Source of the DNA: Tepidisphaeraceae bacterium
GTDB lineage: Bacteria; Planctomycetota; Phycisphaerae; Tepidisphaerales; Tepidisphaeraceae
Assembly (NCBI GenBank): GCA_035998445.1
Contig: DASYHQ010000063.1
Coordinates: 1 to 64,000, forward strand
DNA length: 64,000 bases
Direction: 5' to 3'
Made by a program: the position numbers and the translations under genes. Positions 1-51,181 of this stretch are shown piece by piece. Below the pieces are notes generated by a model. That model was not told the DNA's origin and searched no databases. It saw only the letters and a list, made by a program, of their open reading frames with translations. Numbering within the stretch: position 1 is the stretch's first letter; each line of letters begins with the position of its first letter.

Positions 1-387
1 GGCTGACGGGGCTCCGGCTTCCTTCTGTGACATGTATTCCTTCCGATTGAGATAAGTTCCTGAGTGGTATTCCCGATGTGCTGTAATATTCGTCACGATC
101 GGACCCTCGCATTAGGCGACGGGGCAATTTTCTAATGCACCCCACTTATCGGACAGGCGGAGAAGTCTGCCGGACGCTGAAACACGCCGGCGACGCGTAA
201 GAATCCTGAGCGGATGTGAAACGAAGGGCCAGGGGGGACGCCGCATTCTTCGGGACGACGTGAGTTTTAGGTTGCGCGAACATCCGCCGCATCCTTTCAA
301 CGCGAAAAGTTGACGGGCACGGCGGAGACGTTTTGCCGGCCGCTGGGTCGGCGGTAGGAAGCGACGGGTTCACCGGGGAGGCTGAAC
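1..387. other. No supported gene
   Basis: I see no convincing coding sequence here. Two overlapping minus-strand open frames (about 112-373) have no recognisable domain and biased composition. The only clear signal is a strong Shine-Dalgarno run (GGGGAGG, about 374-380) that serves the GTG start at 388. Confidence 0.5.
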
Positions 388-734
388 GTGCCTAGTTCGA
401 ACGCGAAGATCAGTTATAGCGACGCGAAAGCCGGCCCGTACACCGAGATTGACGGTGCCTATCTCGTAGCTCTTCCCGCAAATGGGCGGCGGCGGCGGCG
501 GCGCACTGGATCGCGCGGGAGCCGGGGCAGATCACCTTTGCTTACCCAACCAAGCGCTTCCAGCGTATCGATTCGATGACACGTAAGGCTCAATACTGGC
601 GTGTGACGTGCGAAGACGGGCCCGACCCAGCGTGGGTAGGTCACCCGCAAAGTCCTGGCCGCATCGGCGACGATGAGCCAATTGCGACGATCCAACTTAG
701 CGGCGCTCCGTTTATTCCGGGCAAAGATGAATGA
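388..734 (+). pseudogene. Frameshifted small hypothetical gene
   Basis: A GTG start at 388 has an ideal GGGGAGG ribosome site 7 nt upstream. The first about 31 codons (SYSDAKAGPYTEIDGAYLV) read naturally. The frame then turns into an arginine run inside a (GGC)n tract at about 484-502. The frame one base away continues as sensible protein (IAREPGQITFAYPTKRF, then WRVTCEDGPDPAWVG) and stops at 732-734. Restoring one base gives about 115 residues. No family is recognised. The tract is a likely site of a sequencing or replication slip, so the gene may be intact in the cell. Confidence 0.55.
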
Positions 735-823
735 ATGCCGGTGTATACCAGTCCTTGCACGCGATCGGTGAGGCGAGCGCACCATACACGCTGGCCCCGT
801 CCCCGTCCTCTTGGCCGCCGACG

Positions 824-1066
824 CTAGTTCAGATTCGTCGTTCGCTGCGGCACGATGATCAACGCGAGGTCGGCCTGTGCGACCTTGTTCAGGTTCTGGA
901 TCAGCTCCTCGTAGGTGTCACCCAGTACTTGGGGGGCAGCGACGATGATGGCGTCGACCTTGTTGCGCGGGGTGCCGCGGCACAGCCGGTCGAGCTCCGC
1001 GAACTTGTCGGTTGTGACGCTGAGGTCCCGGGTGTACGAGGCGGCCCTCGTCGCTTTGTGTGGCAT
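824..1066 (-). CDS. Small hypothetical protein
   Basis: This 80-residue frame has ordinary protein composition, with segments such as VTTDKFAELDRLCRGTP, NKVDAIIVAAPQVLGD and an amphipathic stretch LIQNLNKVAQADLALIIV. The ATG at 1066 is preferred to the upstream ATG at 1147 because the extra N-terminus is low-complexity. There is no strong ribosome site. Spacing of charged and hydrophobic residues suggests an alpha/beta fold, but I recognise no family. It is transcribed away from the efflux operon. Confidence 0.45.
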   Translation of the reverse strand: MPHKATRAASYTRDLSVTTDKFAELDRLCRGTPRNKVDAIIVAAPQVLGDTYEELIQNLNKVAQADLALIIVPQRTTNLN

Positions 1067-1265
1067 GGGCGGCAGAATATCACATCCCGCCCAACCAGAA
1101 CTCTGCTTGGCCGATCCTGCAGTTCCTCGCGCGCTACGGTTGGTCACGCCACAGGGAGTCGTGACAATCTTCGTAGGCCCCTAAGCCCTTCTATGTGGGC
1201 GCGCATTGTCAGGGGCTACAAGGAACCTTTAGGCGCTCGACGCACGTTATAAACAATAACGACCC

Positions 1266-2699
1266 ATGCAAACTCCCTTGTTCAATTGGCGATGGCTGAT
1301 CCCGCTGCCGGCAACCCTGTTTCTCTCTGGCTGCGTGTTTGCGCCGAGGGCGGCGAAAATTGAACAGGATCGCGTCACGCAGGCCGGAAGGGCATACGCG
1401 GCAAGTCGATCGGCGCGGGTGGTGGCCAACCTGCCTGTCGGTCAAACTGAAATCACCTGGCGTGAAGTGCTGGGTCGCGCACTGCTGGCCAGCGGGGAGC
1501 TGGAGGCAGCCTACTACGAGTGGGCGATGGCGGTGACACAAATCGATCAGAAGGGGACGTGGCCGCAGCAACCACTTGAGCTCGGCTTCGACTACATGTT
1601 TTCCGCCGAGCGGATGAAGACATTAGACCGCATGACGTTCTCCGCCGGGCTGATGGACGCGACGGGGCTCCCGAACAAAGCGTACCAAGACGCGAAAGTT
1701 GCCTGGCGCGACGCAGAGGCGGCGGGGGAACGGTTCAGGCAGGCGAAATTCGAACTTCAGCGGAAGGTGCTGTCGGCATGGGCGGATTATGCCCTGCAGG
1801 CCGAGAAGGTCCGGGTGCAGGAAGAGAACGTCCGGCTGCTGCGACTCGTGAGCGAGACCGCCGGCGCGCGGGTGCGGGCGGGTGCGCCTCAGCAAGATCT
1901 GCTGCGAGCGCAAGTCGAACTGAAGCAGGCAGAGAACGAACTGTCGACTATGAGGTCGGAAGTGCAGAGGCAGCGCGCGACACTGAACGCGCTGCTGGTG
2001 AGGCCGGCCGAGTCGCCGCTCCCACCCCCGGTGCGGTTGCCAGAGCCGCGGCCGCTGATCGCAGACGATTCAGCCCTGCTGGCGATGGGAGTGCGAAACA
2101 ACCCGGAGCTGGCGGCTTTGGACAAGGACCAGCTGGCGCGCGAAGCGGCAATCGTGCGGGCAAGGTTGGATTACCAGCCGGAGATAAACCTCACGGCGGC
2201 CTTCACCGGTTCCATTTCGCAGACGGTCGGCGGGATGTTGGTGGTCCCGACGCGCCTGCCGGCTATCCGCGCGATGGTGCGCGAGGCACGATCGGACCTC
2301 CGACGGGTCGAAGCCATGGCGGATCAGGCTCGTTCGGACCGCGGGGCACAGTTTGCCGCGACGCTCGTGGCGCTGCGCGATGCCGAACGGCGGACGCGGG
2401 TGTTTGAAGCGGAAATCGTACCGCTCGCGACCCGAACGCTTGACCTTACACGTCGGGCGTACGCGAGCGGGTCAGCAACCTATCTGGACGTGATCGAGTC
2501 GCAACGCACGCTACTCGATGTGCGACTGATGGTGGCCGACGCCCGGGCGATGCGGGAGCGGATGCTGGCCGAGCTGGAGATGCTTGCCGGCGCAGACGTC
2601 GAAACCCTCGCCGAGGCCGTAAAGCCGGCCACGCAACCAACGTCACCGATGACCATGCGGACGAACGCAGTTAAGACCGTGATGGAGGCCCAGCCATGA
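1266..2699 (+). CDS. TolC-family outer-membrane efflux lipoprotein
   Basis: This 477-residue protein has a lipoprotein signal (LPATLFLSGC, cysteine near residue 23) and then long alpha-helical coiled-coil segments typical of the outer-membrane efflux protein family, for example RRVEAMADQARSDRGAQFAA and RTLDLTRRAYASGSATYLDV. The duplicated pattern of helices and the motif RAYASGSATYLDVIESQRTL near residue 400 are characteristic. It would form the outer-membrane duct of a tripartite metal efflux pump. Its stop overlaps the start of the adaptor gene (ATGA at 2696-2699), so the two are translationally coupled. The ATG at 1266 places the signal sequence correctly. This is the only intact gene of the operon. 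Confidence 0.88.
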   Translation: MQTPLFNWRWLIPLPATLFLSGCVFAPRAAKIEQDRVTQAGRAYAASRSARVVANLPVGQTEITWREVLGRALLASGELEAAYYEWAMAVTQIDQKGTWPQQPLELGFDYMFSAERMKTLDRMTFSAGLMDATGLPNKAYQDAKVAWRDAEAAGERFRQAKFELQRKVLSAWADYALQAEKVRVQEENVRLLRLVSETAGARVRAGAPQQDLLRAQVELKQAENELSTMRSEVQRQRATLNALLVRPAESPLPPPVRLPEPRPLIADDSALLAMGVRNNPELAALDKDQLAREAAIVRARLDYQPEINLTAAFTGSISQTVGGMLVVPTRLPAIRAMVREARSDLRRVEAMADQARSDRGAQFAATLVALRDAERRTRVFEAEIVPLATRTLDLTRRAYASGSATYLDVIESQRTLLDVRLMVADARAMRERMLAELEMLAGADVETLAEAVKPATQPTSPMTMRTNAVKTVMEAQP

Positions 2700-4652
2700 G
2701 CAGTACTGAATCGACTAATAACGGACACGGCGACGAGCAGCCGAAGATCGCGCCGCGAGAGTTCGGCACCGACGCGACCCCTGAGATGGACCATGCGGTC
2801 GAACACGCCCGGCGGCGCTACGTCCGAAACGGCGGATGGAGGTCGACCGCGATCTTTGCGGCCGTCGCGGTCGGCGCGTTTGCGGTCGGTACCTATTGGG
2901 GTAGCGACGCTCTACGGATGGCCGGAATCTCTTCGCATCGGCATGACGAGGGCCCGTCCGTCGCCGCTTCAGGCCCGTCGTCTGCGCCCGTCATCGGGGC
3001 CAACCACGACGCGGGTGATGGGGGCAAGTCACTCTGGACCTGTTAGATGCACCCGCAGGTGATCCAGCCAGCTCCCGGCATCTGCCCGATCTGCCACATG
3101 GAGCTCACGCCGTTGAAGTCTGACGGTGCCGGCGGCGGGACCGTGAACATCGATCCGGTGATCGTCCAGAACATGGGTGTCCGCACCGCAGAGGTCCAGA
3201 AGGGTCCGATAGTCCAGAGCGTTCGGGTGGTGGGTTACCTGGAGGAGCCCGAACCGCTCCACCGGGACATCAATCTCCGCGTGAACGGGTGGATCGAGAA
3301 GCTTTACGCCAACGTCGACGGCATGTTGATCAAGGACGGGCAGCCCCTCTTCGACCTATACAGCCCTGAGCTCACCGTTGCCATCGACGAGATGATCTCG
3401 GCTGCCAAGCAGCTCAAGATCGCGCCGGAGGATGAGACCAGCAAAGCCCTGATCGACGCGTCACGACGCAAGCTGCTGCAGTACGGTCTGACCGACGGCC
3501 AAGTCACGGAACTCGGCAAGCTCGACGCCGCCCCACGGACGGTTCCGATCATCGCGCCAATCGGCGGGCACCTAACCGCGAAGATGGTGTACGAGGGTGC
3601 AGCCGTTAAGGCCGGGGACCTCGTTCTCAGGCTTGCTTCCCGGCACCGGATCTGGATCGATGCGCAGGTCCCCGAGCAGCAGATGCCGCTGCTGTCCGAC
3701 GGCCAGCCGGTCCGGGCGACGCTCGTCTCACAGCCGGGAAAGGTGTTCGACGGGAAGCTATTGTTCGTTCACCCTCACCTCGATCCGAAGACGAGGACCG
3801 CACTGGCGCGGATCGAGATCGACAACCCGGACCTGCACCTGCGCCAAGGCATGTACGCGACGGTCGAGATCGCGGCCGATGATTACCGGGAGGCGACGGT
3901 CGTGCCCCGCGAGGCGGTGATCGACTCCGGTCGGCGGCAGCTGGCGTTCGTCGATCTTGGTGGCGGGCGGTTCGAGCCGCGCGATCTCAAGCTCGGGCTC
4001 AGTGGGCAAGACGACACGGTCGAGGTCTTGGAAGGGGGTCAAACCGGGCGAGCGGGTCGTGACGTCCGGTCAATTCCTTCTCGACAGCGAGAGCCGGATG
4101 AAGGAAGCCGTCGCTAAGCACCTCTCGGGTGGACTCGGAGCATATGCCGGCGGCGCACCAGCGGCGTCCAAGGGCGCGACGACATCGCCGGCTGCCCCCG
4201 TAACCAAAGTTGTCGTTCCCCACACCGACGACATCGTAAAGGCATACCTGTCGCTCGCGAAGAAACTCGGCGAACGTCAGGCCGACCAGACGCCCGTCGA
4301 TCCCGGACGACTGGCCGACGTCGCGGCGTTGGCGGCAGGCCATGCGTCCGGCGAGGCCAAGGCACTCGCCCAGTCTGTATCGGACGCAGCGGCGGGCCTT
4401 AAAGGTAAGCCCATCGCCGAGCAGCGGAAGGGATTCATCGCGGTGTCGGACGCGGTCGTCGCGCTCGTGCGAGCTTTGACCCCGAGCGATGCGGTCGCAC
4501 CCCCGCTCTTTGTGATGCACTGTCCGATGGCATTCGACGACAAAGGGGCTCTCTGGCTGCAAGACGATGAGACGCTCGCCAACCCCTACTACGCGACCGC
4601 GATGAAGCGGTGTGGCGAGGTTCGCGAACAGATCGCGACCCGAATGAAGTAA
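2696..4652 (+). pseudogene. cusB: CusB-type metal efflux periplasmic adaptor, interrupted
   Basis: Three open pieces make one adaptor of about 651 residues. Piece 1 (2696-3046) has a cytoplasmic tail and one membrane anchor (AIFAAVAVGAFAVG). An in-frame TAG at 3044-3046 falls inside the heavy-metal-binding motif, which reads TC-stop-MHPQV, then PGICPICHMEL. Piece 2 (to about 4036) holds the barrel-sandwich and beta-barrel domains (VNGWIEKLYANVDG, IIAPIGGHLTAKMVYEGA, ALARIEIDNPDLHLRQGMYA). An extra G in the G5 run at 4034-4038 shifts the frame. Piece 3 (to 4652) resumes at VKPGERVVTSGQFLLDSES and ends in a DUF3347 metal-binding domain (MHCPMAFDDKGALW, NPYYATAMKRCGEV). CusB hands Cu(I)/Ag(I) to CusA. 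Removing one base restores 652 codons, with the single TAG remaining. Whether the breaks are real is unresolved. Confidence 0.85.
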
Positions 4653-35014: not shown

Positions 35015-37615
35015 TTAGGCCTTCTGCAGATGAGCGTCGTACAACGCGCGGTACCGCCGCAGCGTGTCTTCCAGCCACGCAAACCGCTCCTGCCACGACG
35101 TCCAATCCGCGAAGGGCGTGAACCGGTACACGCCGACCCAGTGCCAGTCGTCACCGGGTTCCATCGTGGCGTTCGGCACCGGCGGTGCCGCCAGCTGTCC
35201 CACGTTCGCGACGGTGATCTCGTAGTGCTTGAGCGCATCCTTACCGGTGAACTTGAAGCCCACCCACACCCAGTTTCGTTCCGGTGCGATCTGGACCACC
35301 AGGTGGATGCCACGTTGTAGCTCGCCCTGACGAACGTAGCGTTCCTTCGACTTCTCAATCACGACGACATCGTCGAAGCGCAAGCGGTCAGCGTTCATCT
35401 GGAAGCCTTTCCAGAACGTGGCGCTGGCATCTTTCAACGATTCGTTGTCATCGTCGAACTTCGTGAGGATCCGCGGCGTGAAGACGTCATGAAATCGTTT
35501 GAGCTGCACGGCGAGCCAGTCGTGTTGCCGTGACCAGTCGCCCCGATCGGCGGCCTGGGCTGAATCGAGGAATACGGCCACCCTGGGCGTCCGCTCGTCC
35601 GACAGCCACTCGACTTGGTAGCCCAGCTCCGACTCGATCGCGGTCTCGTCCTGGCGGACGATCTCCAAATCCCTGATCGCGCCGGCCCCGCGGAAGTAGA
35701 GCTCGACGTTGACGCACGCCTCGTCCGTGTCCGTGGCAACGGCGAACGCTGCCCCGGACCGACCGGCACTGTACGACACATGATCTCGATCGGACGGTTT
35801 CGCCGGTACTAGGTCGGGTGCCACGGTGGCAAGTCGCACGCTGAACTCTTGCCAGTACTCGCCCCGCAGGGACTTGAGGGTCGCCTTGTCCGCGTCGGTG
35901 ACGACGACGCCGTCCGACTTTCCGGGGCGGTAGGGCGCCTTTGAAAGACGCGGCCACAGCTTGGCGATATCGCCCGCCAGTGTCTGTCCCCGCTTGCCAA
36001 TGTCGGCAGCGTTCCACGTCGCCAGCGTGGTGAAGTACTTGTTGAGCTGAGCGTTGCTCTTCTTGAATAGCCCTCGCTTCACGTCGAACGGACGATTCGA
36101 GAGGTTCGGGTTGTACCCGGTGAGCGTGAGATTGCCGATCGTGTGCAGCCACGCGTCGTGAGCCGCCTGCCAGTCGACGCCGAGCATCTCCTGCCACGCG
36201 TTCGCGAACTTGCCGTTGCCGTCGATCGACTGCGGCAGCACGTGCTCGATCGTTAGCTTCTCCAGTTCGGGGCCTTCTTTGTGACCGTGTGCCCGTTCCA
36301 GCCCGCGGAGGACCAGCTCACATTTACGGCGCTCACGCCGATAAATGGGGAAGCCCAGCAGGGCGGTGGTAAACGCCGCGTCGTCCGGCCAGCCCTTGGC
36401 CGCCCAGTACGTCCGCAGGTCCTCAACCGGATTGCCATCGATCGCCTTGATGGCGGCAGTCATGAGTTCGTTGTAGGAGCGCGTCGACTCACCGCAGATC
36501 GAACGCCGAAGGACGAAGCTCTCGAGGTCCGCGATGCACGCCAACACGGCGTCAAGGCTCAGCGAGCCGGCCGCCTCCCGGGCGAGCAAGTGCATGAGCA
36601 GGGGGTACGCCGTCGTTACGTCCAACAGGCTGACGCGGTCGAGCGCGGACTCAAGGCGGCCGTCGGCGGCCGTCCCTTTCCGCCGGAGGAGTTCCTCGAA
36701 CTTGGCGAAATGGCGGAGTTCGGCGAGCAGATCTTCCGCACCGATGTCGCGGGCTCTGACCTGATCTTTGAAGTCCACGAACGTCGCGCCCCTGCGGGCG
36801 TAGGCGCCGTCCCGCATGAGGTAGTTGCGGTAGAACGCCGTCGGGTCCAGCGACTCCTGGTCCTCGCCGGCCTCGAACACGGCCTCGAACGGCACCCAAT
36901 TCTGACGGTTGAACTCGTCCTGTTCGGCGAGCGGCACCCTCATGAAGATGAAGTTGCGGATCAGGTCCGACTCGGCGAGTGGCAGTCCCGTGGAGTTCAG
37001 GCTCTCGAAGATCTCGTATGGGTTCTCGCCCTCGACGGTGACGACGACCAGCGACAGCCGTCCCGTCGCCGCGGCCAACAACGACTTGAGCCGTCGCTCC
37101 TCATCCCCCTTGGCGTACTCGCCGACCGACGCTTTGAAGAATCGGTGGGCCCGGACGATCCCGTCGCGGCGGGACTGCTCGGCGGCCTTCCCGTCCACGA
37201 TGGCGAACAGGACCTCACGGTCGCCGACACGTGGGACGACCTTGTACCGCTTGAGGCCCTTTGCCCGCTTGTGCCAGAGGAACGTCTCGCTGACGTCCTC
37301 CGCAAGCTCGGGCAGTTGGGCCTCCGCCGCCACGTCGCGGATCGCCGTCAACAACACCGTGAGCGTCGTCAGCCGCTGTTGCCCGTCAATCAACAGGTAC
37401 TCTGGCGTCTCGCCGGGCATGTGGTTGACCGGCGTGCACACGAGCGGGCCGAGGAAGTGAACCCGGAGCCTCGCATCCTCGACCAGCGACCGCAGGTCGT
37501 CCCATAGGCGTTGCCAGTTCTTCAGCTTCCAGGAGTAATGACGTTGGAAGAACGGGATCAGGTACTGATCGCCCACGTACAGGATGTCTCGAACGGTCTT
37601 CGCCTTGGCGTCCAT
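35015..37615 (-). CDS. DUF262-DUF1524-DUF4268 restriction-like protein
   Basis: The 866-residue protein starts at ATG 37615 (GGAGG 6 nt upstream). An N-terminal DUF262 domain has the IDGQQRLTTL signature (about 76-85) and FQRHYSWKLKNWQRLWDDL. A middle DUF1524 HNH-type nuclease has IEHVLPQS (about 452-459) with HTIGNLTLTGYNPNLSN. A C-terminal DUF4268 domain (about 630-750) has ESELGYQVEWLSDERTPRVA, followed by about 110 more residues. DUF262/DUF1524 proteins of the GmrSD type are nucleotide-dependent endonucleases acting on modified foreign DNA. This single-chain version next to Hachiman fits a defence island. All key motifs are intact. Confidence 0.85.
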   Translation of the reverse strand: MDAKAKTVRDILYVGDQYLIPFFQRHYSWKLKNWQRLWDDLRSLVEDARLRVHFLGPLVCTPVNHMPGETPEYLLIDGQQRLTTLTVLLTAIRDVAAEAQLPELAEDVSETFLWHKRAKGLKRYKVVPRVGDREVLFAIVDGKAAEQSRRDGIVRAHRFFKASVGEYAKGDEERRLKSLLAAATGRLSLVVVTVEGENPYEIFESLNSTGLPLAESDLIRNFIFMRVPLAEQDEFNRQNWVPFEAVFEAGEDQESLDPTAFYRNYLMRDGAYARRGATFVDFKDQVRARDIGAEDLLAELRHFAKFEELLRRKGTAADGRLESALDRVSLLDVTTAYPLLMHLLAREAAGSLSLDAVLACIADLESFVLRRSICGESTRSYNELMTAAIKAIDGNPVEDLRTYWAAKGWPDDAAFTTALLGFPIYRRERRKCELVLRGLERAHGHKEGPELEKLTIEHVLPQSIDGNGKFANAWQEMLGVDWQAAHDAWLHTIGNLTLTGYNPNLSNRPFDVKRGLFKKSNAQLNKYFTTLATWNAADIGKRGQTLAGDIAKLWPRLSKAPYRPGKSDGVVVTDADKATLKSLRGEYWQEFSVRLATVAPDLVPAKPSDRDHVSYSAGRSGAAFAVATDTDEACVNVELYFRGAGAIRDLEIVRQDETAIESELGYQVEWLSDERTPRVAVFLDSAQAADRGDWSRQHDWLAVQLKRFHDVFTPRILTKFDDDNESLKDASATFWKGFQMNADRLRFDDVVVIEKSKERYVRQGELQRGIHLVVQIAPERNWVWVGFKFTGKDALKHYEITVANVGQLAAPPVPNATMEPGDDWHWVGVYRFTPFADWTSWQERFAWLEDTLRRYRALYDAHLQKA

Positions 37616-37745
37616 CAACCCCTCCGAAGTGGTCGGTCGTGTAACTCGGTCACCTGAAATCGGACGATCCGTTTCGATCGCCACCGTCGTGTTCGCGGCG
37701 TGGATTTTACAAGCAAGGCGACACTTTACGAAGACCCCCGCCTCA

Positions 37746-37772
37746 CCGTCCGCCCCGTCCGCCCCGTCCGCC
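37746..37772. repeat. Three tandem copies of a 9-bp unit
   Basis: CCGTCCGCC occurs three times in a row upstream of the DUF262 start. In the in-frame 5' extension it encodes a Gly-Ala-Asp repeat, which is one reason for rejecting that extension. Confidence 0.7.
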
Positions 37773-38010
37773 GAATCGAACGTGGTTGTCAGCGTCCCCA
37801 TTGGTCCCCGCCGGCTCCGATCCCTCTAATCGCCGACGAGGGCACCTTCCATCCTCTCGGGGGCCCTTGCGACCTTCGCGAGGATCAGAAGAGGGTCCCC
37901 AACATCCAGGGGGCTCCCCGTGTCACACCGAATGAACAACGGGGTGCTAAGGGAGGGCGGACGCTGCGGACGAGGCGGACGGCTGCAGGAGACTGGACGG
38001 AGCCCGGCCA

Positions 38011-39951: not shown

Positions 39952-40580
39952 TGTCAGAGTTTGTTAAGCCCGTCGCCATCTACGCTCGCGTCTCGACCTC
40001 GGACCAGACGCTCGACGCTCAGCTCTGTGACCTGCGCGAGTACTGCCGGTCCCGCGGATGGCGGGCGGTCGAGTATACGGACCAGGGCGTGAGCGGGGCG
40101 AAGGACAGCCGGCCGGGTTGGAACGCGTGCTGGGACGCCGTGCAGAAGGGGCACCATCCCGCGCTGGTCGTCCACGCCTAGGACCGGGTGGGGCGATCGT
40201 TGCCGCACCTGGTGAAGATCATCACGTTCATGTCGGAGCGGAACGTTGCGCTCGTGTCGTACCGCGAGAACCTGGACCTGACGACGGCGGCGGGGCGGAT
40301 GCTGGCCGGCATCTTCGGCGTGATGGCCGAGTACGAGCGCAGCATCATCAGTGAACGGACGAAGGCGGGGATGAGGGCGGCCAAGGCGAGGGGGAAGCGC
40401 ATAGGTAACCAGCAGGCTCGCTTCTTCGATCGTAAACGGGCTGCGGAGTTGAGGGCGTCGGGGATGGGACAAGTTCGGATCGCCAAGACCCTGGGTGTCG
40501 GCGTGGGCACGGTGAACAAATGGGCCCGAGCGCAGCAACCACGTGAAGTGATCTCGAGGCCCGCGCTGCGCCCGTTATAA
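39951..40580 (+). pseudogene. Serine recombinase (resolvase/invertase), interrupted by TAG
   Basis: This resolvase has catalytic Ser15 in AIYARVSTSDQTLDAQ, then SRGWRAVEYTDQGVSGAKDS. After LVVHA a TAG (40179-40181) stands where the family has Leu or Trp before DRVGRSLPHLV. The same frame continues FGVMAEYERSIISERTKAGM and a C-terminal helix-turn-helix (RASGMGQVRIAKTLGVGVGT). If the TAG is read through it is 209 residues, the normal size. It would catalyse site-specific resolution or inversion. No crossover site is obvious to me nearby, although the 21-bp palindrome at 30471 is a candidate to test. Confidence 0.82.
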
Positions 40581-41704: not shown

Positions 41705-42724
41705 TTAGGGTTTGGTCGCCCTAATCGTACTGTAAATCGAAAACCTGTGGATCACTTCTGGATCGGCAAAACCGACGCCCTGAAGCAACATAAATACCTG
41801 CTGCTGTAGCAATTTTCCTCCGCCACTGTGAATATAAATCAAAAGATGAAGAACGTGGGTGGATATTGGTGTCGGTTCAGGAGTATCGAGTAGCGCTTCA
41901 TGTATAAATATTACTCCTCCAGTCGGCATATGATCGTATGCCCGCTTAAGAAGAAAAGTAATTTCCAACTCAGGCCAATCATGTAAGATGTTGCTGAAGT
42001 GGTACGCTTCTCCGTACACCCATGGATCAACAAAAAAGTTGGACGGGTGATAACGAATTCTGTCCATGCCAAACGTCGAATTCATCTTCGACGAAGCCAC
42101 ACAAATGTTGTCCAGATCCATGATAGTGATCAACGGCGGACTAACAGCAGATTCTTCCAAACTAAGGGCAACGGCGAGGGCACCAGACCCACCGCCGGCG
42201 TCCACTATCGCCGGTATCCCGTCAAATATACGGGAACGCACCTGTTCTAGCATTGGAGCCATAATATGCCGATGCATTCCAAAGAGGAACCCTCGTGCTT
42301 CCTCTTCGCTGATCAGGCCTCTGCGCCAACGCTGGCAGAAGGTCTCTCGGATACGGGTTGCATCACCAGATATACCAGCAACTAACTTCTGATAAGCGAT
42401 ATTTCCAGTCGAACGTGCCGTAGCGGACCCTATAAAAAGTGGTCCGCTCCATGTAACAAAATCACGAAACTGCGCATCGACAACATACTTACCGTTGCTG
42501 CGTCGTAGGAGTATAGTTGAAGCAGCAAGCAGCTGGAGAAGGCGCTCCAAGCATTCCCTGTCAAGATCGAGGGAGGCAGATATCTCGGATAGATCCGTCG
42601 AGTGATCAAGTGCGTCCAGAACGCCAAAGTGAATGGCGACATTCAGAGCGGCTGGCACATACTCGCCCAACTGCAGCTCAAGCATGGCGTGGTAACCGTT
42701 AGTGTTTATACTCGGCATGTTCAT
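41705..42724 (-). CDS. SAM-dependent O-methyltransferase (caffeate/hydroxyindole type)
   Basis: The 339-residue protein has an N-terminal dimerisation domain (LQLGEYVPAALNVAIHFGVL, then LDLDRECLERLLQLLAAS) and a Rossmann methyltransferase with the SAM loop IVDAGGGSGALAVALSL. DLDNICVAS is the acidic strand and HFSNILHDWPELEITFLLKR carries the catalytic His-Asp. It methylates hydroxyl groups on aromatic or polyketide-like substrates in this family. ATG 42724 overlaps the end of the ATP-grasp gene by 26 bases; ATG 42718 is equally possible. It is the last gene of the biosynthetic operon, which is visibly more AT-rich than its surroundings. Confidence 0.88.
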   Translation of the reverse strand: MNMPSINTNGYHAMLELQLGEYVPAALNVAIHFGVLDALDHSTDLSEISASLDLDRECLERLLQLLAASTILLRRSNGKYVVDAQFRDFVTWSGPLFIGSATARSTGNIAYQKLVAGISGDATRIRETFCQRWRRGLISEEEARGFLFGMHRHIMAPMLEQVRSRIFDGIPAIVDAGGGSGALAVALSLEESAVSPPLITIMDLDNICVASSKMNSTFGMDRIRYHPSNFFVDPWVYGEAYHFSNILHDWPELEITFLLKRAYDHMPTGGVIFIHEALLDTPEPTPISTHVLHLLIYIHSGGGKLLQQQVFMLLQGVGFADPEVIHRFSIYSTIRATKP

Positions 42725-44066
42725 CGTCTTGAGACCCCGGCCCGCCAGTACTGAATTGAGCGTCAATCTTGGCGAAAAGATCGTGCTGCTCGGAGCCCGA
42801 TCGCGTGATGAGGCAGAGCAGGTAGCTGCCATCGCTTATCTCCGTATGGGGAGGGATTCCGAGCATGGCTCCAGTACGCGTCTCCGTGTCATACAGAGCT
42901 CCCGTTCGCCTAAGGCCCTCTATCACTTCCCCGGTCCCCATGGCCGGCCAGTGTGCCGGAGTTAGGTATTGGACGACATGCCGGTCTACTGTGTCCGAGC
43001 TCTTTACGACTCGTTCCCAGATTCCGCCATAGATGGGCAGTGATCCACCGACCCGGGCATTCATTTCGGTAAAATGAACCTTTCCCCGCGAATCGAGAAT
43101 GCCGTCGGCACTCATGTATCCTCGATAACCGATGGCGTGGTAAAGCTCCGACAACTTTCGTGCATGTTCCAGTGCTGTGCGCAGACTTTCCGGCGGGATG
43201 TCCCAGTTGAGCGGCGTGTGCTCACGAACCAACTTTCCACGTTCGTACTCGAGTCCACCTGCCGCAAGGAAGGTAACTTGCGAATCATCCGCTCTGAACT
43301 CAAACCACACCGTCTGGCAGCAGGTTTTTAGCTCTTCAACTATTACGGGGAAGCGGTTATCCATGGACCCCCAAGTCCATAGGTAGGGAATGCTTCCTTT
43401 TAATTCCGAAAGATCATTGACCCATATCGAGCCCGCTGTCCGTGGCGCTGTCGTCCAGTCCTTCCGGATAACGGTGCAGCCCGCCCCCGCACTGTTATGA
43501 GCCTGTTTGACCATAACACCATCAGTGTCCTTGAGCAGGGCGGAGATTGCAGAATTGAGCTCCTCTTGTGTCCTACAGACCGTTCCCCTTGGAATAGGCG
43601 TTCCACTGGCGGCGGCGAGAGCTCGAAAGGTCGCCTTGCTATTGACCAAGGCATCGCCCCCTTGGCTGAAGAACTGTGCCCCTGGCATAGCTAACTCGAT
43701 CTTCAAACGTGTAGCGAGGTCCGCCACTTGAACACCGGGCCAGAGGCAAAGCAGTTCCGAGCAGTCTTTCACGAGGGGGGTCAACAGATCAATGAGATCG
43801 GGTGATACCAAGCTGAGCGGATCAAGTAGCCGCCCCTGGTGTCGACCGGTGGGCGCGATGAGGATCGTGAGTCGCTCTTTCCGAACTCTGAGGAGACTGC
43901 AAACATGGTCGAGGAACTGCTGATCCGGCGGGGAGGGGACAATGACTATGTCGCCTTCCCGGGCAAGCCAAAAAATCCTCTGGACGAACGTTCTCTGATC
44001 TGGCTGTCGGAGTAGCGATCCGTCGACGTGATTTGCAATGAGCAACCGTGCGTGCGCATTCATCAT
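42699..44066 (-). CDS. Pgm1-like ATP-grasp amide ligase
   Basis: The 455-residue protein has a pre-ATP-grasp region (EGDIVIVPSPPDQQFLDHVC) and an ATP-grasp core with DGVMVKQAHNSAGAGCTVIR, then VWFEFRADDSQVTFLAAGGL and the metal-binding HFTEMNARVGGSLPIYG. A C-terminal extension (GALYDTETRTGAMLGIPPHT, then GSYLLCLITRSGSEQHDLFA) resembles the Pgm1 C-terminal domain. Pgm1 of pheganomycin biosynthesis joins a guanidino amino acid to a peptide, so pairing with the amidinotransferase upstream is telling. ATG 44066 overlaps the amidinotransferase stop by four bases. The substrates are inferred, not visible. Confidence 0.82.
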   Translation of the reverse strand: MMNAHARLLIANHVDGSLLRQPDQRTFVQRIFWLAREGDIVIVPSPPDQQFLDHVCSLLRVRKERLTILIAPTGRHQGRLLDPLSLVSPDLIDLLTPLVKDCSELLCLWPGVQVADLATRLKIELAMPGAQFFSQGGDALVNSKATFRALAAASGTPIPRGTVCRTQEELNSAISALLKDTDGVMVKQAHNSAGAGCTVIRKDWTTAPRTAGSIWVNDLSELKGSIPYLWTWGSMDNRFPVIVEELKTCCQTVWFEFRADDSQVTFLAAGGLEYERGKLVREHTPLNWDIPPESLRTALEHARKLSELYHAIGYRGYMSADGILDSRGKVHFTEMNARVGGSLPIYGGIWERVVKSSDTVDRHVVQYLTPAHWPAMGTGEVIEGLRRTGALYDTETRTGAMLGIPPHTEISDGSYLLCLITRSGSEQHDLFAKIDAQFSTGGPGSQDDEHAEYKH

Positions 44067-45205
44067 CTTGTGTAATCTTCCATCGTGCCACTTCGAACCA
44101 TATCCAGGGTGAAGCAATGGAATCCCCCGCCGAAGAGCCGACGGTGCCGATGCCGCACTGGAATAACCAGAAAGCCCTCAAGCTCTAGGGCCCGGATAAC
44201 ATCAGGACAGTCCTGGTTCGCAACAACAGTTTCGGGGTTTACGGACAACACGTTGAGATCAATGTACGGACTCGTCAGCAACAGGTCGCCGTCATCGTAA
44301 ATAGGAAAGTTCTTCTCCGACGGGATAGGTGGTATGATGAACTTCCACTTATTGAAAGGGGCGGGTAGATGGTCGCGAACGCTCAGATCCCGGGCCAAGA
44401 ACACACCTGGACGCAGGGCGAGGATCATGCTGTCGATGTGGTTGTCGCTCAGCTGATAAACGCGGTGCACCCGATACCTCTCGCCTACGTGACGCTCCAG
44501 CCATGAGCAAGCGATCGCGTGGTTCTCGTTGGCAACATTAACGATTAAGTCTTTGCCGAGCCGCAGGACCTGCGCTCCATCCAACATCATGTCCAGACCG
44601 ACATCGTACGGCGAAGACTCAGGATTCTCGATCGGTTCGGTCGGCCCTCCGAGCGTTGTTTCCGTGGCTCGTGCATAGGACAAGTCAAACGATCGGTCAG
44701 TGAGGACCGGCCTCGGCATCGTGGTCCAGCGAGCGCCGACTTCGAAGTAATGATGAAATACCTTGGCCAACAAACGCGTCTCGAGATATCGGGATCGAAC
44801 TGCGGGCGGCGTCTCGATGATCTCGTCACCCAGAATCAGGGTATTATCTCGGATGTTGAGCGCTGGCACAGGCATCGCTTCCCACCCGAAGCCGCGGATG
44901 GTTTCTGCACTGTGGGGCAGCTCGATTGGCCGGTGAACCTTGATGCCAATCGATGCGAGCGTTACGGCAAGCCCCTCCACGTCCTCGTTGAGTTCATCGA
45001 CATACCGCTGCTTGATCCGCCATGCCCGCTCATGCGCTCTACGATCCGTCGATTTCCTAAGCCGCGGGTAGGCCCAGTCGCTGCGAAATAGGTTCTCGTG
45101 AAAGAATATGTCAAACGAGACTTCCCGGTCGTGCGAGGTATAGTTCTTCGCACTTCCGACGACTACCTCCTTAAGAGGAGACCACTCATCGAAGCTGTTC
45201 AACAT
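44063..45205 (-). CDS. Glycine/inosamine-type amidinotransferase
   Basis: The 380-residue protein begins FDEWSPLKEVVVGSAKNY, as do L-arginine:glycine and inosamine-phosphate amidinotransferases. The active-site triad can be placed: Asp in LDGAQVLRLGKDLIV, His in SDNHIDSMILALRPG and Cys364 in GGGFHCFTLDMVR. YDDGDLLLTSPYIDLNVLS is also typical. It would transfer an amidino group from arginine to an amine, making a guanidino compound. ATG 45205 has GGGAGGA 4 nt upstream. It lies 138 bp after the epimerase gene and is coupled to the ATP-grasp gene. Confidence 0.9.
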   Translation of the reverse strand: MLNSFDEWSPLKEVVVGSAKNYTSHDREVSFDIFFHENLFRSDWAYPRLRKSTDRRAHERAWRIKQRYVDELNEDVEGLAVTLASIGIKVHRPIELPHSAETIRGFGWEAMPVPALNIRDNTLILGDEIIETPPAVRSRYLETRLLAKVFHHYFEVGARWTTMPRPVLTDRSFDLSYARATETTLGGPTEPIENPESSPYDVGLDMMLDGAQVLRLGKDLIVNVANENHAIACSWLERHVGERYRVHRVYQLSDNHIDSMILALRPGVFLARDLSVRDHLPAPFNKWKFIIPPIPSEKNFPIYDDGDLLLTSPYIDLNVLSVNPETVVANQDCPDVIRALELEGFLVIPVRHRHRRLFGGGFHCFTLDMVRSGTMEDYTR

Positions 45206-45343
45206 GCGGTCCTCCCGAGAGTCGATCCTACCAAAAACTGAAGACCTCGGTATGTTATCAACTGGCTGCTTAGCCTGCACCAATCAGATCCAGGAACCGT
45301 AACAAGCGGATTTCTATAGCACCTCGGCGCCTCCGGATCTTTT

Positions 45344-46255
45344 TTATACTGGAGTCACTCCCATCGAACGGGCGAGATAACGAATGTGGTCGCGCAAAGC
45401 ACTCTCTGCATTGCATTGACCTCCAAGGAGACTCTCAATTCGTTGCGTACGGAAATGAGGGATCGGATCTCGGCTATCACCCGGCAGGATACGCACGCCG
45501 CCAGAAGAGCCCACACAAGTGACCACTATGCGAGCAATATGCTCCCACGTGAGGATTTGCTGATCGACGCAGATATAGGTCGGCAGGGGATTGTTTGCCC
45601 GGGTCAGAATGCGAACTACCTTCGCCAACGTTGACACGTCCGAGAATTGCCGCCCCTCCCTGCTCACGACCTCGACGGGTAGTCCCTCCGCCGCTGCGCG
45701 AACCATCTCCGAAAGGCGGTTTGGGCTCCGACAAGAGCTGGAGCCAGACACCGGCAGACCTACGACGGGACCTGGACGAACGACAATCCCGGTCATTTGA
45801 TGGCGTGCGCACGCGGCGCGAAGGAATAGTTCCCCAGCCGCCTTATTCGCGCCGTAGAGATCCGTTGGGCTGAGCCAGTCCTCCTCGGACATCTCGCCGG
45901 CGAACGGACGATGAACCGCCGCCGACGACAGGAAGATTCCCCGTTTCAGGCCGGCGTTGCCTGCGGCATCGAAAAGCTTTGAGGTGACGGCCGCATCTCG
46001 ACCCTCGAGCTCGCCGCTCGGATCACCCCAGATGATCGCAGCATGGATACACACATCATGACCTGGAAGCACCGCCCGGACCCGGGCATCATCCTGCAGA
46101 TCAGCTTCGACTACTTGAAGCCGGGACTCGCTCGCGAATCCGAGCAGCTTGTCCGGCGACCGGGCTACAGCGGTGACGTGCTGGCCGTCAGCAAGGAGCT
46201 CTCGAACGATGTGAAGGCCAATGTAACCTCCAGCGCCGGTTAGGAGGGTTCGCAT
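45344..46255 (-). CDS. NAD-dependent epimerase/dehydratase (extended SDR)
   Basis: The 303-residue protein opens MRTLLTGAGGYIGLHIVREL, with the NAD-binding TGxxGxxG. It has the catalytic YGANK (YxxxK) with an upstream FLSSAAVHRP serine strand, and IVVRPGPVVGLPVSGSS. The family includes nucleotide-sugar epimerases and ketoreductases; the substrate cannot be told. ATG 46255 has AAGGAG 9 nt upstream. It sits between the P450 and amidinotransferase genes, 13 bp after the former. Confidence 0.88.
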   Translation of the reverse strand: MRTLLTGAGGYIGLHIVRELLADGQHVTAVARSPDKLLGFASESRLQVVEADLQDDARVRAVLPGHDVCIHAAIIWGDPSGELEGRDAAVTSKLFDAAGNAGLKRGIFLSSAAVHRPFAGEMSEEDWLSPTDLYGANKAAGELFLRAACARHQMTGIVVRPGPVVGLPVSGSSSCRSPNRLSEMVRAAAEGLPVEVVSREGRQFSDVSTLAKVVRILTRANNPLPTYICVDQQILTWEHIARIVVTCVGSSGGVRILPGDSRDPIPHFRTQRIESLLGGQCNAESALRDHIRYLARSMGVTPV

Positions 46256-46268
46256 GCCATCAAACTCC

Positions 46269-47468
46269 TTACGAAGGCGGGACTCTCTCGTTAACAGGTG
46301 ACTGGCCTTGGCGTGAAACGGGAAGGCGAGCGAGGCAGCGGAGAGTCGCCGTGTCGAGCCAACGGGGCTCACCCGCGAGAGCGAACTCAGACTCCCAATC
46401 TGCCAATTGTCGCACGAAGTGCTCCAAGAACCTTTGGGCGGGCATGGCTCCCACACAGAAGTGCGGACCCCAACCGAAACCGAGATGAGGATTCGGTGAG
46501 CGATCGAGCACGAGGTCGTCCGGGTTCACGAAGTGCTTCGGATCACGGTTTGCGGCGGCCATCAAGGTAACTATTGGCTCCATCTTGCGAATCGTAATCC
46601 CACTTATGACTGTGTCGCGAGCGCAGTATCGCATGGTGGCTTGTGCTGGACTGGTAAACCTCAAAAGCTCCTGAACGCCCTTGGTCACCTGTCCAGAGTC
46701 GACGATGCGCCTCGCTAGGCCGGGACGTTCTAATGAAAGTGCAAGGAAGCTGCCCATTGAAGCGTGGGCGGTGCTATATGCAGCGTTGAACATGGCCGCT
46801 ATGGTGTTGCGGACATAGCCAGCCGACATCTCCCTTACACCCCGAGCCAGATTCAGATCGTAAATTACGCTTCCCGGGGCAGCAACGGGGAGTGCCGCTA
46901 AGATCAACTCATTCAGCTCATGAGTGGCTTCGCGACCAGCGTTGTAGCGGTTTCCGTCCAGCGAACTGTCCATTGCCCGCGTCACGCGGACGAAGATCGA
47001 TTCATAGGTTTCAGAAGCTATCTCGGGTACACCGATCAAGCGGCACGCAAAGTGGAGGGCCGCGGGAGCGGCGGCATCGGACATGAAGTCGAAAGGACGG
47101 TCAACGGGTTGCCGGGCAAGGCACTGTTTGAGTCTGTCACCGGCCCCACGACAGACGGTCGCTACGTCAATGCGATCCAAGGTGATCGCTAAGGCTTGTC
47201 GCAACGGAATTGAGTCTGGCGGATCGTGCGACTGAATCGTCATCCCCTCGCGGCTTGTCTCATTGACTCCGAGCAACTTCGCCGGGTCACGAGAGAAGTC
47301 AACCGAGGACCGAAGCACTCGGCTGCAATCGTCATATCGGCTCAGCACCCAAGCACAAAGCTTGTCGTGCCAAGCTACAGGCGCTTCTACCTGCAGCCGG
47401 CGGAAAATCGGATACGGATCCGCGAGCGTCTCAGGGTGCAGCGGTGCGTAGATTTCCGAGCTCAACAC
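46269..47468 (-). CDS. Cytochrome P450
   Basis: The 399-residue soluble bacterial P450 has the heme loop FGWGPHFCVGA (about 331-341, Cys338 as thiolate), the ExxR pair Glu267/Arg270 (QELLR) and AANRDPKHFVNPDD. The I-helix reads FNAAYSTAHAS (about 227-237) where the family has (A/G)GxxT. The acid normally before the Thr is Ser here, so oxygen activation may be altered. It has no membrane anchor. It overlaps the XRE regulator by 7 bases, so it is the first enzyme of the operon. Confidence 0.92.
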   Translation of the reverse strand: MLSSEIYAPLHPETLADPYPIFRRLQVEAPVAWHDKLCAWVLSRYDDCSRVLRSSVDFSRDPAKLLGVNETSREGMTIQSHDPPDSIPLRQALAITLDRIDVATVCRGAGDRLKQCLARQPVDRPFDFMSDAAAPAALHFACRLIGVPEIASETYESIFVRVTRAMDSSLDGNRYNAGREATHELNELILAALPVAAPGSVIYDLNLARGVREMSAGYVRNTIAAMFNAAYSTAHASMGSFLALSLERPGLARRIVDSGQVTKGVQELLRFTSPAQATMRYCARDTVISGITIRKMEPIVTLMAAANRDPKHFVNPDDLVLDRSPNPHLGFGWGPHFCVGAMPAQRFLEHFVRQLADWESEFALAGEPRWLDTATLRCLARLPVSRQGQSPVNERVPPS

Positions 47469-47725
47469 TGGCTGCCATCTGTTGTCTTGGTGTCGTCGTC
47501 GTCAACGAAGAGATTTTCCAGTGGCACCTGAAAAGCCGCTGCAAGTTTGCAGGCAACATGCACCGTAGGTTCGTAGTCGCCCTTTTCCATAAGCGTGATG
47601 GTGTCAACCGGGACTCCAGTAAGCTCGGCCAACTTTTCCGGCGTGTTAGCGTCAGATGGAGCCCGTTTGAGGAGCTCAGAGATTCGTTTCGGACCGAAGG
47701 AGGACGTAATGTGATCGTAAGTCAT
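47462..47725 (-). CDS. XRE-family regulator, first gene of the biosynthetic operon
   Basis: The 87-residue protein has a Cro/C1 helix-turn-helix (KRISELLKRAPSDANTPEKL, then AELTGVPVDTITLMEKGDYE, PTVHVACKLAAAFQVPLENL) and an acidic tail (VDDDDTKTTDG). GGAG lies 7-10 nt before ATG 47725. All six genes from here to 41705 run the same way with overlaps or gaps of at most 138 bp, so this regulator probably controls its own operon. Confidence 0.85.
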   Translation of the reverse strand: MTYDHITSSFGPKRISELLKRAPSDANTPEKLAELTGVPVDTITLMEKGDYEPTVHVACKLAAAFQVPLENLFVDDDDTKTTDGSQC

Positions 47726-50290: not shown

Positions 50291-51181
50291 CTACGCCTTC
50301 TTCCGACCCTTCTTCTCCGCCGCGACCCGCCCAGCCGTACTGGGGGCCACGAGCTTGGGCGGCTTCTGCCCGACGCGGCGCTTCGTCTCGTCCAGGCTCT
50401 TCTGCAGCGCCTCCATCAGGTTGATGACCGCCGGCGGCTCGTCGGCCGTCACGTTCGCCTCGATCGTCTGGCGTCCCTGCAGCTTGGCCTCGACGACTTG
50501 GCGGACGCTTTCGGTGTAGCGGTCCGTGTAGGTCGACAGGTCCACCTCGTCGGCCGCCATCGCGTCGACGAGCGTGCGGGCCAGCTTCACCTCGTCGCCC
50601 GTCACGTCCACTGCCGGGGCCTCGGCGGCGAACTCGCCCGGCTTGCGCACGGCGGCGTCGAGGCTCAGGACCGTTATGGCCAGGATGAGGCCGGCGGGGC
50701 GGACGAGCACCGTCTGGTCGTGGCCGCCACTGACGCGCGTGGCGAAGGCGACGCGGCCGGTGTCGAGCATGACCTTGCGCAGCAGCGCGTAGGGCTTTGC
50801 CGCCAAGGGGCCCTCGGGCAGCAGGTAATACGTGGTGCCGTCATAATAGGCGGGGTCGATCGAGCCGGCGGGGACGAACGACTCGATGCCCACCGTCTTC
50901 TCGTTCTTGAGCCGCGCTTTGCTGATCTCCTGCTCGTCGATGATGACGTACTGGTCCTTGGCGAACTCGTAGCCCTTGACGATCTCGTGGGCCGGGACCT
51001 CGCCGTGGAGCGGGCAGACCTTCTTGTAGTTGATGCGGCTGTTGCAGTCCTTGTGGAGCTGGTTGAACGCGATGCGGTCGCTGCCGCCGCTTTGGGTCGC
51101 GGTGTAGGCCCGGACGGGGACCGTGACGAGCGAGAAGTGAAGGAAGCCCTTCCAGACCGAGCGTGCTGAGGCCATGGCCAT
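50291..51181 (-). CDS. ku: Ku protein, non-homologous end joining
   Basis: The 296-residue bacterial Ku opens ARSVWKGFLHFSLVTVPVRA and contains CNSRINYKKVCPLHGEVPAH, then EIVKGYEFAKDQYVIIDEQE and AFATRVSGGHDQTVLVRPAG. A basic C-terminal tail ends AEKKGRKKA. Ku homodimers ring DNA ends and recruit LigD. No ligD is in the window. The length and all core motifs are normal. It ends with TAG, which shows that TAG is a true stop in this genome. Confidence 0.95.
   Translation of the reverse strand: MAMASARSVWKGFLHFSLVTVPVRAYTATQSGGSDRIAFNQLHKDCNSRINYKKVCPLHGEVPAHEIVKGYEFAKDQYVIIDEQEISKARLKNEKTVGIESFVPAGSIDPAYYDGTTYYLLPEGPLAAKPYALLRKVMLDTGRVAFATRVSGGHDQTVLVRPAGLILAITVLSLDAAVRKPGEFAAEAPAVDVTGDEVKLARTLVDAMAADEVDLSTYTDRYTESVRQVVEAKLQGRQTIEANVTADEPPAVINLMEALQKSLDETKRRVGQKPPKLVAPSTAGRVAAEKKGRKKA

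Follow-up and report, generated by a model that had tools for sequence, protein, structure and literature searches.

The six-gene operon at 41705-47725 on the minus strand of the window (the whole 64,000-nt stretch of Tepidisphaeraceae DNA analysed here) is best read as a RiPP cluster of the biarylitide-Pgm1 hybrid type, with the N-terminus of the annotated "XRE" protein, rather than an 18-bp mini-gene, as its precursor (probability about 0.8). On sequence grounds, the XRE gene most likely encodes the precursor of a small ribosomal peptide, with the first five to seven residues as its core. The arrangement, a precursor fused to a helix-turn-helix (HTH) domain, has no counterpart in the other clusters compared. 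The first-pass annotation had noted that no RiPP precursor is adjacent; the MTYDH start of the XRE gene is most likely this precursor.

Operon layout and genomic setting

Inspection of the open reading frames revealed six genes, each intact, in the order XRE, P450, SDR, amidinotransferase (AMT), Pgm1-type ATP-grasp and O-methyltransferase (OMT). The XRE gene (47462..47725) overlaps by 4-7 nt the gene of a biarylitide/RufO-type cytochrome P450 (46269..47468), which starts with GTG or with a TTG at 47465 that overlaps the XRE stop. A gap of 13 nt separates the P450 gene from the SDR/NAD-dependent epimerase-like gene (45344..46255, start MRTLLTGAGGYIG), and 138 nt lie between the latter and the AMT gene (44063..45205). 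The AMT gene overlaps the Pgm1-type peptide ligase gene (42699..44066) by 4 nt, which in turn overlaps the OMT gene (41705..42724) by 26 nt. The earlier description of six intact, tightly coupled genes thus holds in all its overlaps and gaps. Likewise, the named families are borne out by Pfam and structure matches: the P450 matches its Pfam family at 5e-12, the SDR matches Epimerase at 2e-23, and the OMT (Methyltransf_2 plus dimerisation domain) reaches 3e-20 in Pfam, with ASMT as the closest solved structure (2e-16).

In agreement with the first-pass annotation, the operon is AT-richer than its neighbours: its GC content is 44-63%, while the flank at 48 kb has 65-72% and that at 40-41 kb has 59-69%. 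A serine recombinase gene at 40188-40580, 1.1 kb beyond the operon end, matches the Resolvase domain in its second half only and is therefore probably truncated. The P450 had a match in one genome only, its own, both in a sample of 392 from the phylum and in a set of 26 from the order. Together, the GC dip, the truncated recombinase, and the presence of the P450 in 1/392 and 1/26 genomes point to horizontal acquisition of the operon. Relatives of the AMT were not found in viral contigs.

Further along the window, a HamA and HamB pair (Hachiman anti-phage defence, 30484-34220) is AT-richer than its surroundings, as is the operon, and adjoins a GmrSD-type (type IV restriction) protein with DUF4268 (35015-37801). 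The region around these genes looks like a genomic island. A Ku protein (double-strand break repair) is encoded at 50291-51181.

The XRE gene and related precursors

The XRE protein opens with MTYDHIT (47705..47725), which continues in frame into a linker and an HTH_3 domain to give 87 residues in total. The HTH_3 domain spans residues 28-70 (1.5e-8; 35 bits against a curated Pfam cut-off of 23). A Shine-Dalgarno (SD) motif, GGAG, is located 6 nt 5' of the ATG, translation gives the complete HTH domain from M1 only, and the first stop in this frame follows residue 87. By likeness to related precursors, the core is predicted to read M-T-Y3-D4-H5-I-T with Tyr3 and His5 as the cross-link sites. 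As in biarylitides, aromatic residues occupy positions 3 and 5 behind a two-residue leader, and the precursor lies next to the P450 gene, the XRE stop overlapping the P450 start. MTYDH is identical to the stand-alone precursors of four other loci (L003, L011, L016, and L027), and residues 6-7 (IT) are shared with the MEYNHIT precursor described below. At the DNA level, the window contains a single copy of the motif, where shuffled sequence leads one to expect 0.01. Alignments to other XRE proteins begin mostly near residue 14, past the core. An AlphaFold model of the 87-residue protein, made without an alignment, is of low confidence (pLDDT 56), with helices within residues 12-64 and residues 1-11 unstructured. 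Operator palindromes or promoters that convince were not found at the operon.

A stand-alone precursor gene (18 bp; 5-8 residues) is absent from 41.6-48.4 kb, and in pattern searches no free-standing MxYxH mini-gene with a plausible start turned up in the rest of the assembled genome. Of six matches to the ATG pattern, four lie inside long frames that stay open upstream and lack an SD motif, one starts a SecD-like protein, and one is the XRE gene of the operon itself. An MxYxH-stop pattern with ATG, GTG, or TTG matched twice in the genome, once with a TTG start and once ending in TGG, which is no stop. As the genome is 95.5% complete, a separate mini-gene could be missing.

Scanning genomes with an alignment of the AMT yielded 41 loci, to which Streptomyces plasmids were added, and 46 other loci were compared. 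Every locus with this P450 has an MxYDH or MxYNH precursor, and in 34 loci (plasmids counted) the P450 is accompanied by a stand-alone five-residue MxY[D/N]H gene. Three assignments are less sure, since the precursor lies just 3' of the P450 in L007 and several kb away in L012 and L048. In L007, a Bacillus arachidis plasmid, the mini-gene just downstream of the P450 (position 7210) encodes MNYNH, and ATP-grasp genes are nearby. The same P450-Pgm1-AMT set is present on four Streptomyces plasmids, where a stand-alone MTYDH or MSYDH gene precedes the P450 by 86-117 nt, and one of these mini-genes is identical to the MTYDH of the window. Overall, the P450-AMT-Pgm1 core occurs together in dozens of genomes, so the co-occurrence elsewhere on which the earlier proposal depended is found.

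Longer stand-alone precursors are present in Leifsonia (MEYNHIT; L013, 7876), Cellulomonas (MTYNHIV; L046, 6412), and Arthrobacter (MLYDHIA; L015, 6742), with seven residues each, and in a Flavobacteriales MAG (MSYDHAPN; L042, 3260), with eight. These loci possibly represent a distinct biarylitide subclass with residues beyond His5. None of the 46 other loci contains another HTH-fused precursor, and the fusion is known from one genome.

The P450 and its partner enzymes

The P450 was placed by PDB matches, a residue map, and a tree. Its best structural matches are RufO entries (8spc, 8spp, and others; about 6e-56), followed by related pentapeptide P450s, with all others far behind, and in the tree it groups with the cluster P450s of the P450Blt/RufO/BytO family. 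Entries 8spc and 8spp were recognised as RufO via PMC10442852, while 8U2M, in the entry group among the P450 structure matches, is named as P450Blt in PMC12186263. RufO acts by nitrating MRYLH, a pentapeptide of ribosomal origin, and P450Blt forms a Tyr3-His5 cross-link in such pentapeptides (PMC12186263). Thus, rather than merely decorating a product, as first suggested, the enzyme falls in a class whose members cross-link or nitrate Tyr in MxYxH peptides. The P450 family, together with the pairing of Asp4 and Pgm1 in PMC13417212, predicts an M-x-Y-D-[aromatic] precursor here. With this placement, a plain guanidino-amide cluster without precursor was abandoned. Of the initial idea of an unknown guanidino-amide, the biosynthetic operon and the guanidino- and amide-forming enzymes stand, while the absence of a precursor does not.

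In RufO, residue 84, Arg188, and Arg231 hold the backbone amides and the C-terminal carboxylate of the pentapeptide, with Arg188 binding the carboxylate (PMC12186263). A tested biarylitide (myxarylin-pathway) P450 left a substrate with one extra C-terminal residue unmodified (PMC12951456). Among 39 aligned cluster P450s, the 34 that are paired with a five-residue precursor all have Arg at position 188. The other five, with precursors that extend beyond His5, have Thr (window) or, in the remaining four, Gly three times and Ala once. These five (the window, L013, L046, L015, and L042) are set apart from the rest by a branch with 99/97 support, so the correlation represents one evolutionary event with no independent replication. 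Since loss of Arg188 is expected if these P450s take the core away from a C-terminus, the P450 of the window most likely takes the uncut fusion as its substrate. Position 231 (Ala in the window) carries no weight because it is also variable among five-residue systems.

Both enzymes that characterise pheganomycin-type systems are present, a Pgm1 ligase (PDB 3wvq, PGM1 of pheganomycin, 5e-55; PreAtp-grasp 1e-18) and an AMT (PDB 1bwd, 5e-46). The AMT has no Pfam match; its structural matches include StrB1 (1e-46) and AGAT (1e-37). In the alignment to 1bwd it retains the Asp, His, and Cys positions of AGAT and StrB1 (LDGAQ, NHIDS, and GGGFHCFT), which we take to be catalytic. By family, formation of a guanidino group by the AMT and of an amide by the Pgm1-type enzyme, as originally proposed, is supported. 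AMTs of related loci are 49-76% identical (most 57-76%, L045 49%), with that of L042 being nearest. AMT-Pgm1 pairs occur without a P450 (L008 and L009), and one AMT homologue (L038) is found together with Pgm1 and a type III PKS, the combination seen in pheganomycin clusters. Our reading is therefore that AMT and Pgm1 form a module for guanidino-acyl transfer, here coupled to a biarylitide module.

The SDR is absent from the 46 other loci compared, as is the OMT, L050 alone having a distant, 25% identical methyltransferase. Roles for both enzymes are guesses; speculatively, the OMT may act on the Tyr phenol. L050, from the family of the window genome, encodes a 51% identical AMT adjoining an O-methyltransferase and a NUDIX protein (377-3369). 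Its genome has no P450 or Pgm1 match, and the locus is another AMT cluster type in this lineage.

Proposed pathway, rival readings, and known systems

In the proposed pathway, the ribosome would make the MTYDHIT-linker-HTH protein that the gene spells out. The RufO/P450Blt-type P450 would join Tyr3 to His5, or otherwise oxidise Tyr3, on the intact fusion, as suggested by its family and the loss of the clamp. Proteases encoded outside the operon, which has no protease gene of its own, would remove Met-Thr and the HTH follower. The AMT would convert arginine and an amine to an alpha-guanidino acid, which the Pgm1-type ligase would activate with ATP and join to the peptide amine, as in pheganomycin. 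OMT and SDR may introduce further changes, although this is speculative. The HTH part would be at least a C-terminal follower, possibly also an autoregulator. We only tentatively suggest that the HTH protein is both transcription factor and precursor: it would regulate its own operon, MTYDHIT would be cross-linked by the P450 and cut off, and the state of the regulator would report substrate supply and maturation.

The XRE protein might instead be an ordinary regulator with a coincidental MTYDH start, the true precursor lying elsewhere or none being used. Small HTH regulators are common in biosynthetic operons, and the SecD-like protein of the same genome (L055) also begins with MTYNH, presumably fortuitously, so the motif can arise by chance. 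However, a motif independently predicted from the P450 family opens the very gene that overlaps the P450, residues 6-7 match as well, and no other precursor was found, all of which makes this explanation very improbable. Less remote, but still unlikely, is an accidental fusion in which a mini-gene lost its stop and ran into a downstream HTH gene, with a passive HTH part and a pathway that is decaying or tolerant. The occurrence in a single genome, the island-like setting, and the free 5-8-residue form of related precursors would fit such an event, whereas the intactness of all six genes and an HTH domain that exceeds the Pfam cut-off speak against it; moreover, the P450 comes from the clamp-less group, so an extended core fits.

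Within the same RiPP reading, the chemistry might also run in the opposite direction, with the AMT amidinating the N-terminus of cross-linked YDH and the Pgm1-type ligase activating the peptide carboxylate and adding an amine. Pgm1-type ligases use alpha-guanidino acids as acyl donors, and the operon lacks a separate amino-acid pathway, both in keeping with this variant. We nevertheless consider it doubtful: the ribosomal peptide of pheganomycin is joined to a free guanidino amino acid, and the AMT-Pgm1 pairs without a P450 indicate that AMT action does not require a P450 product as substrate.

If the preferred reading of a fused precursor is true, this biarylitide P450 would accept a core that is extended at its C-terminus, a property for which the missing Arg188 clamp is the proposed structural cause and which would be useful for peptide cross-linking. 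If the HTH domain is active, regulation and substrate are combined in one molecule. Biarylitide precursors are described as the smallest genes known, and mining tools seek only free ORFs of 5-8 residues (PMC13417212). Such searches would overlook a core that opens an annotated regulator, and the biarylitide family may therefore exceed its current count.

Among known systems, ketomemicin clusters (ktmA-F) also comprise six genes with an AMT and an ATP-grasp peptide ligase, and their products are made without ribosome or NRPS (gene list from PMC11943689). A cluster of this type was ruled out, the operon having no aldolase, PLP C-acyltransferase, or dehydratase. Pheganomycin and resorcinomycin clusters have AMT and Pgm1 ligase in common with the window, and pheganomycin also uses a ribosomal peptide partner. 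In contrast to these clusters, the operon contains neither a type III PKS nor phenylglycine genes, thus no type III PKS-based hydroxyphenylglycine supply, and its precursor and P450 are of other kinds.

Biarylitides (bytA/bytO; P450Blt, myxarylin, RufO) share with the window the P450 family, the M-x-Y-x-H core, and a precursor that adjoins the P450 gene. Their precursors are stand-alone five-residue genes (searched at 5-8), whereas that of the window is an 87-residue HTH protein, and their reported phyla are mainly Actinomycetota, plus Bacillota and Pseudomonadota. Contrary to the earlier view that the set resembles nothing described, 277 biarylitide-type clusters were reported in 2026, 47 of which pair a Pgm1 ligase with an Asp4 precursor (PMC13417212). 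Such hybrids (e.g. L003-L006, L014, and L016-L020) combine P450, Pgm1, and Asp4 precursor as in the window, and in these loci also an AMT of about 65% identity. The Streptomyces-type hybrids add an Asp/Asn beta-hydroxylase, a second ATP-grasp, and often an APH-like kinase, whereas the window has SDR and OMT instead, a different gene order, and a fused precursor. The exact gene set thus does appear undescribed, as first supposed, the HTH-fused precursor and the SDR/OMT pair setting it apart from the reported hybrids.
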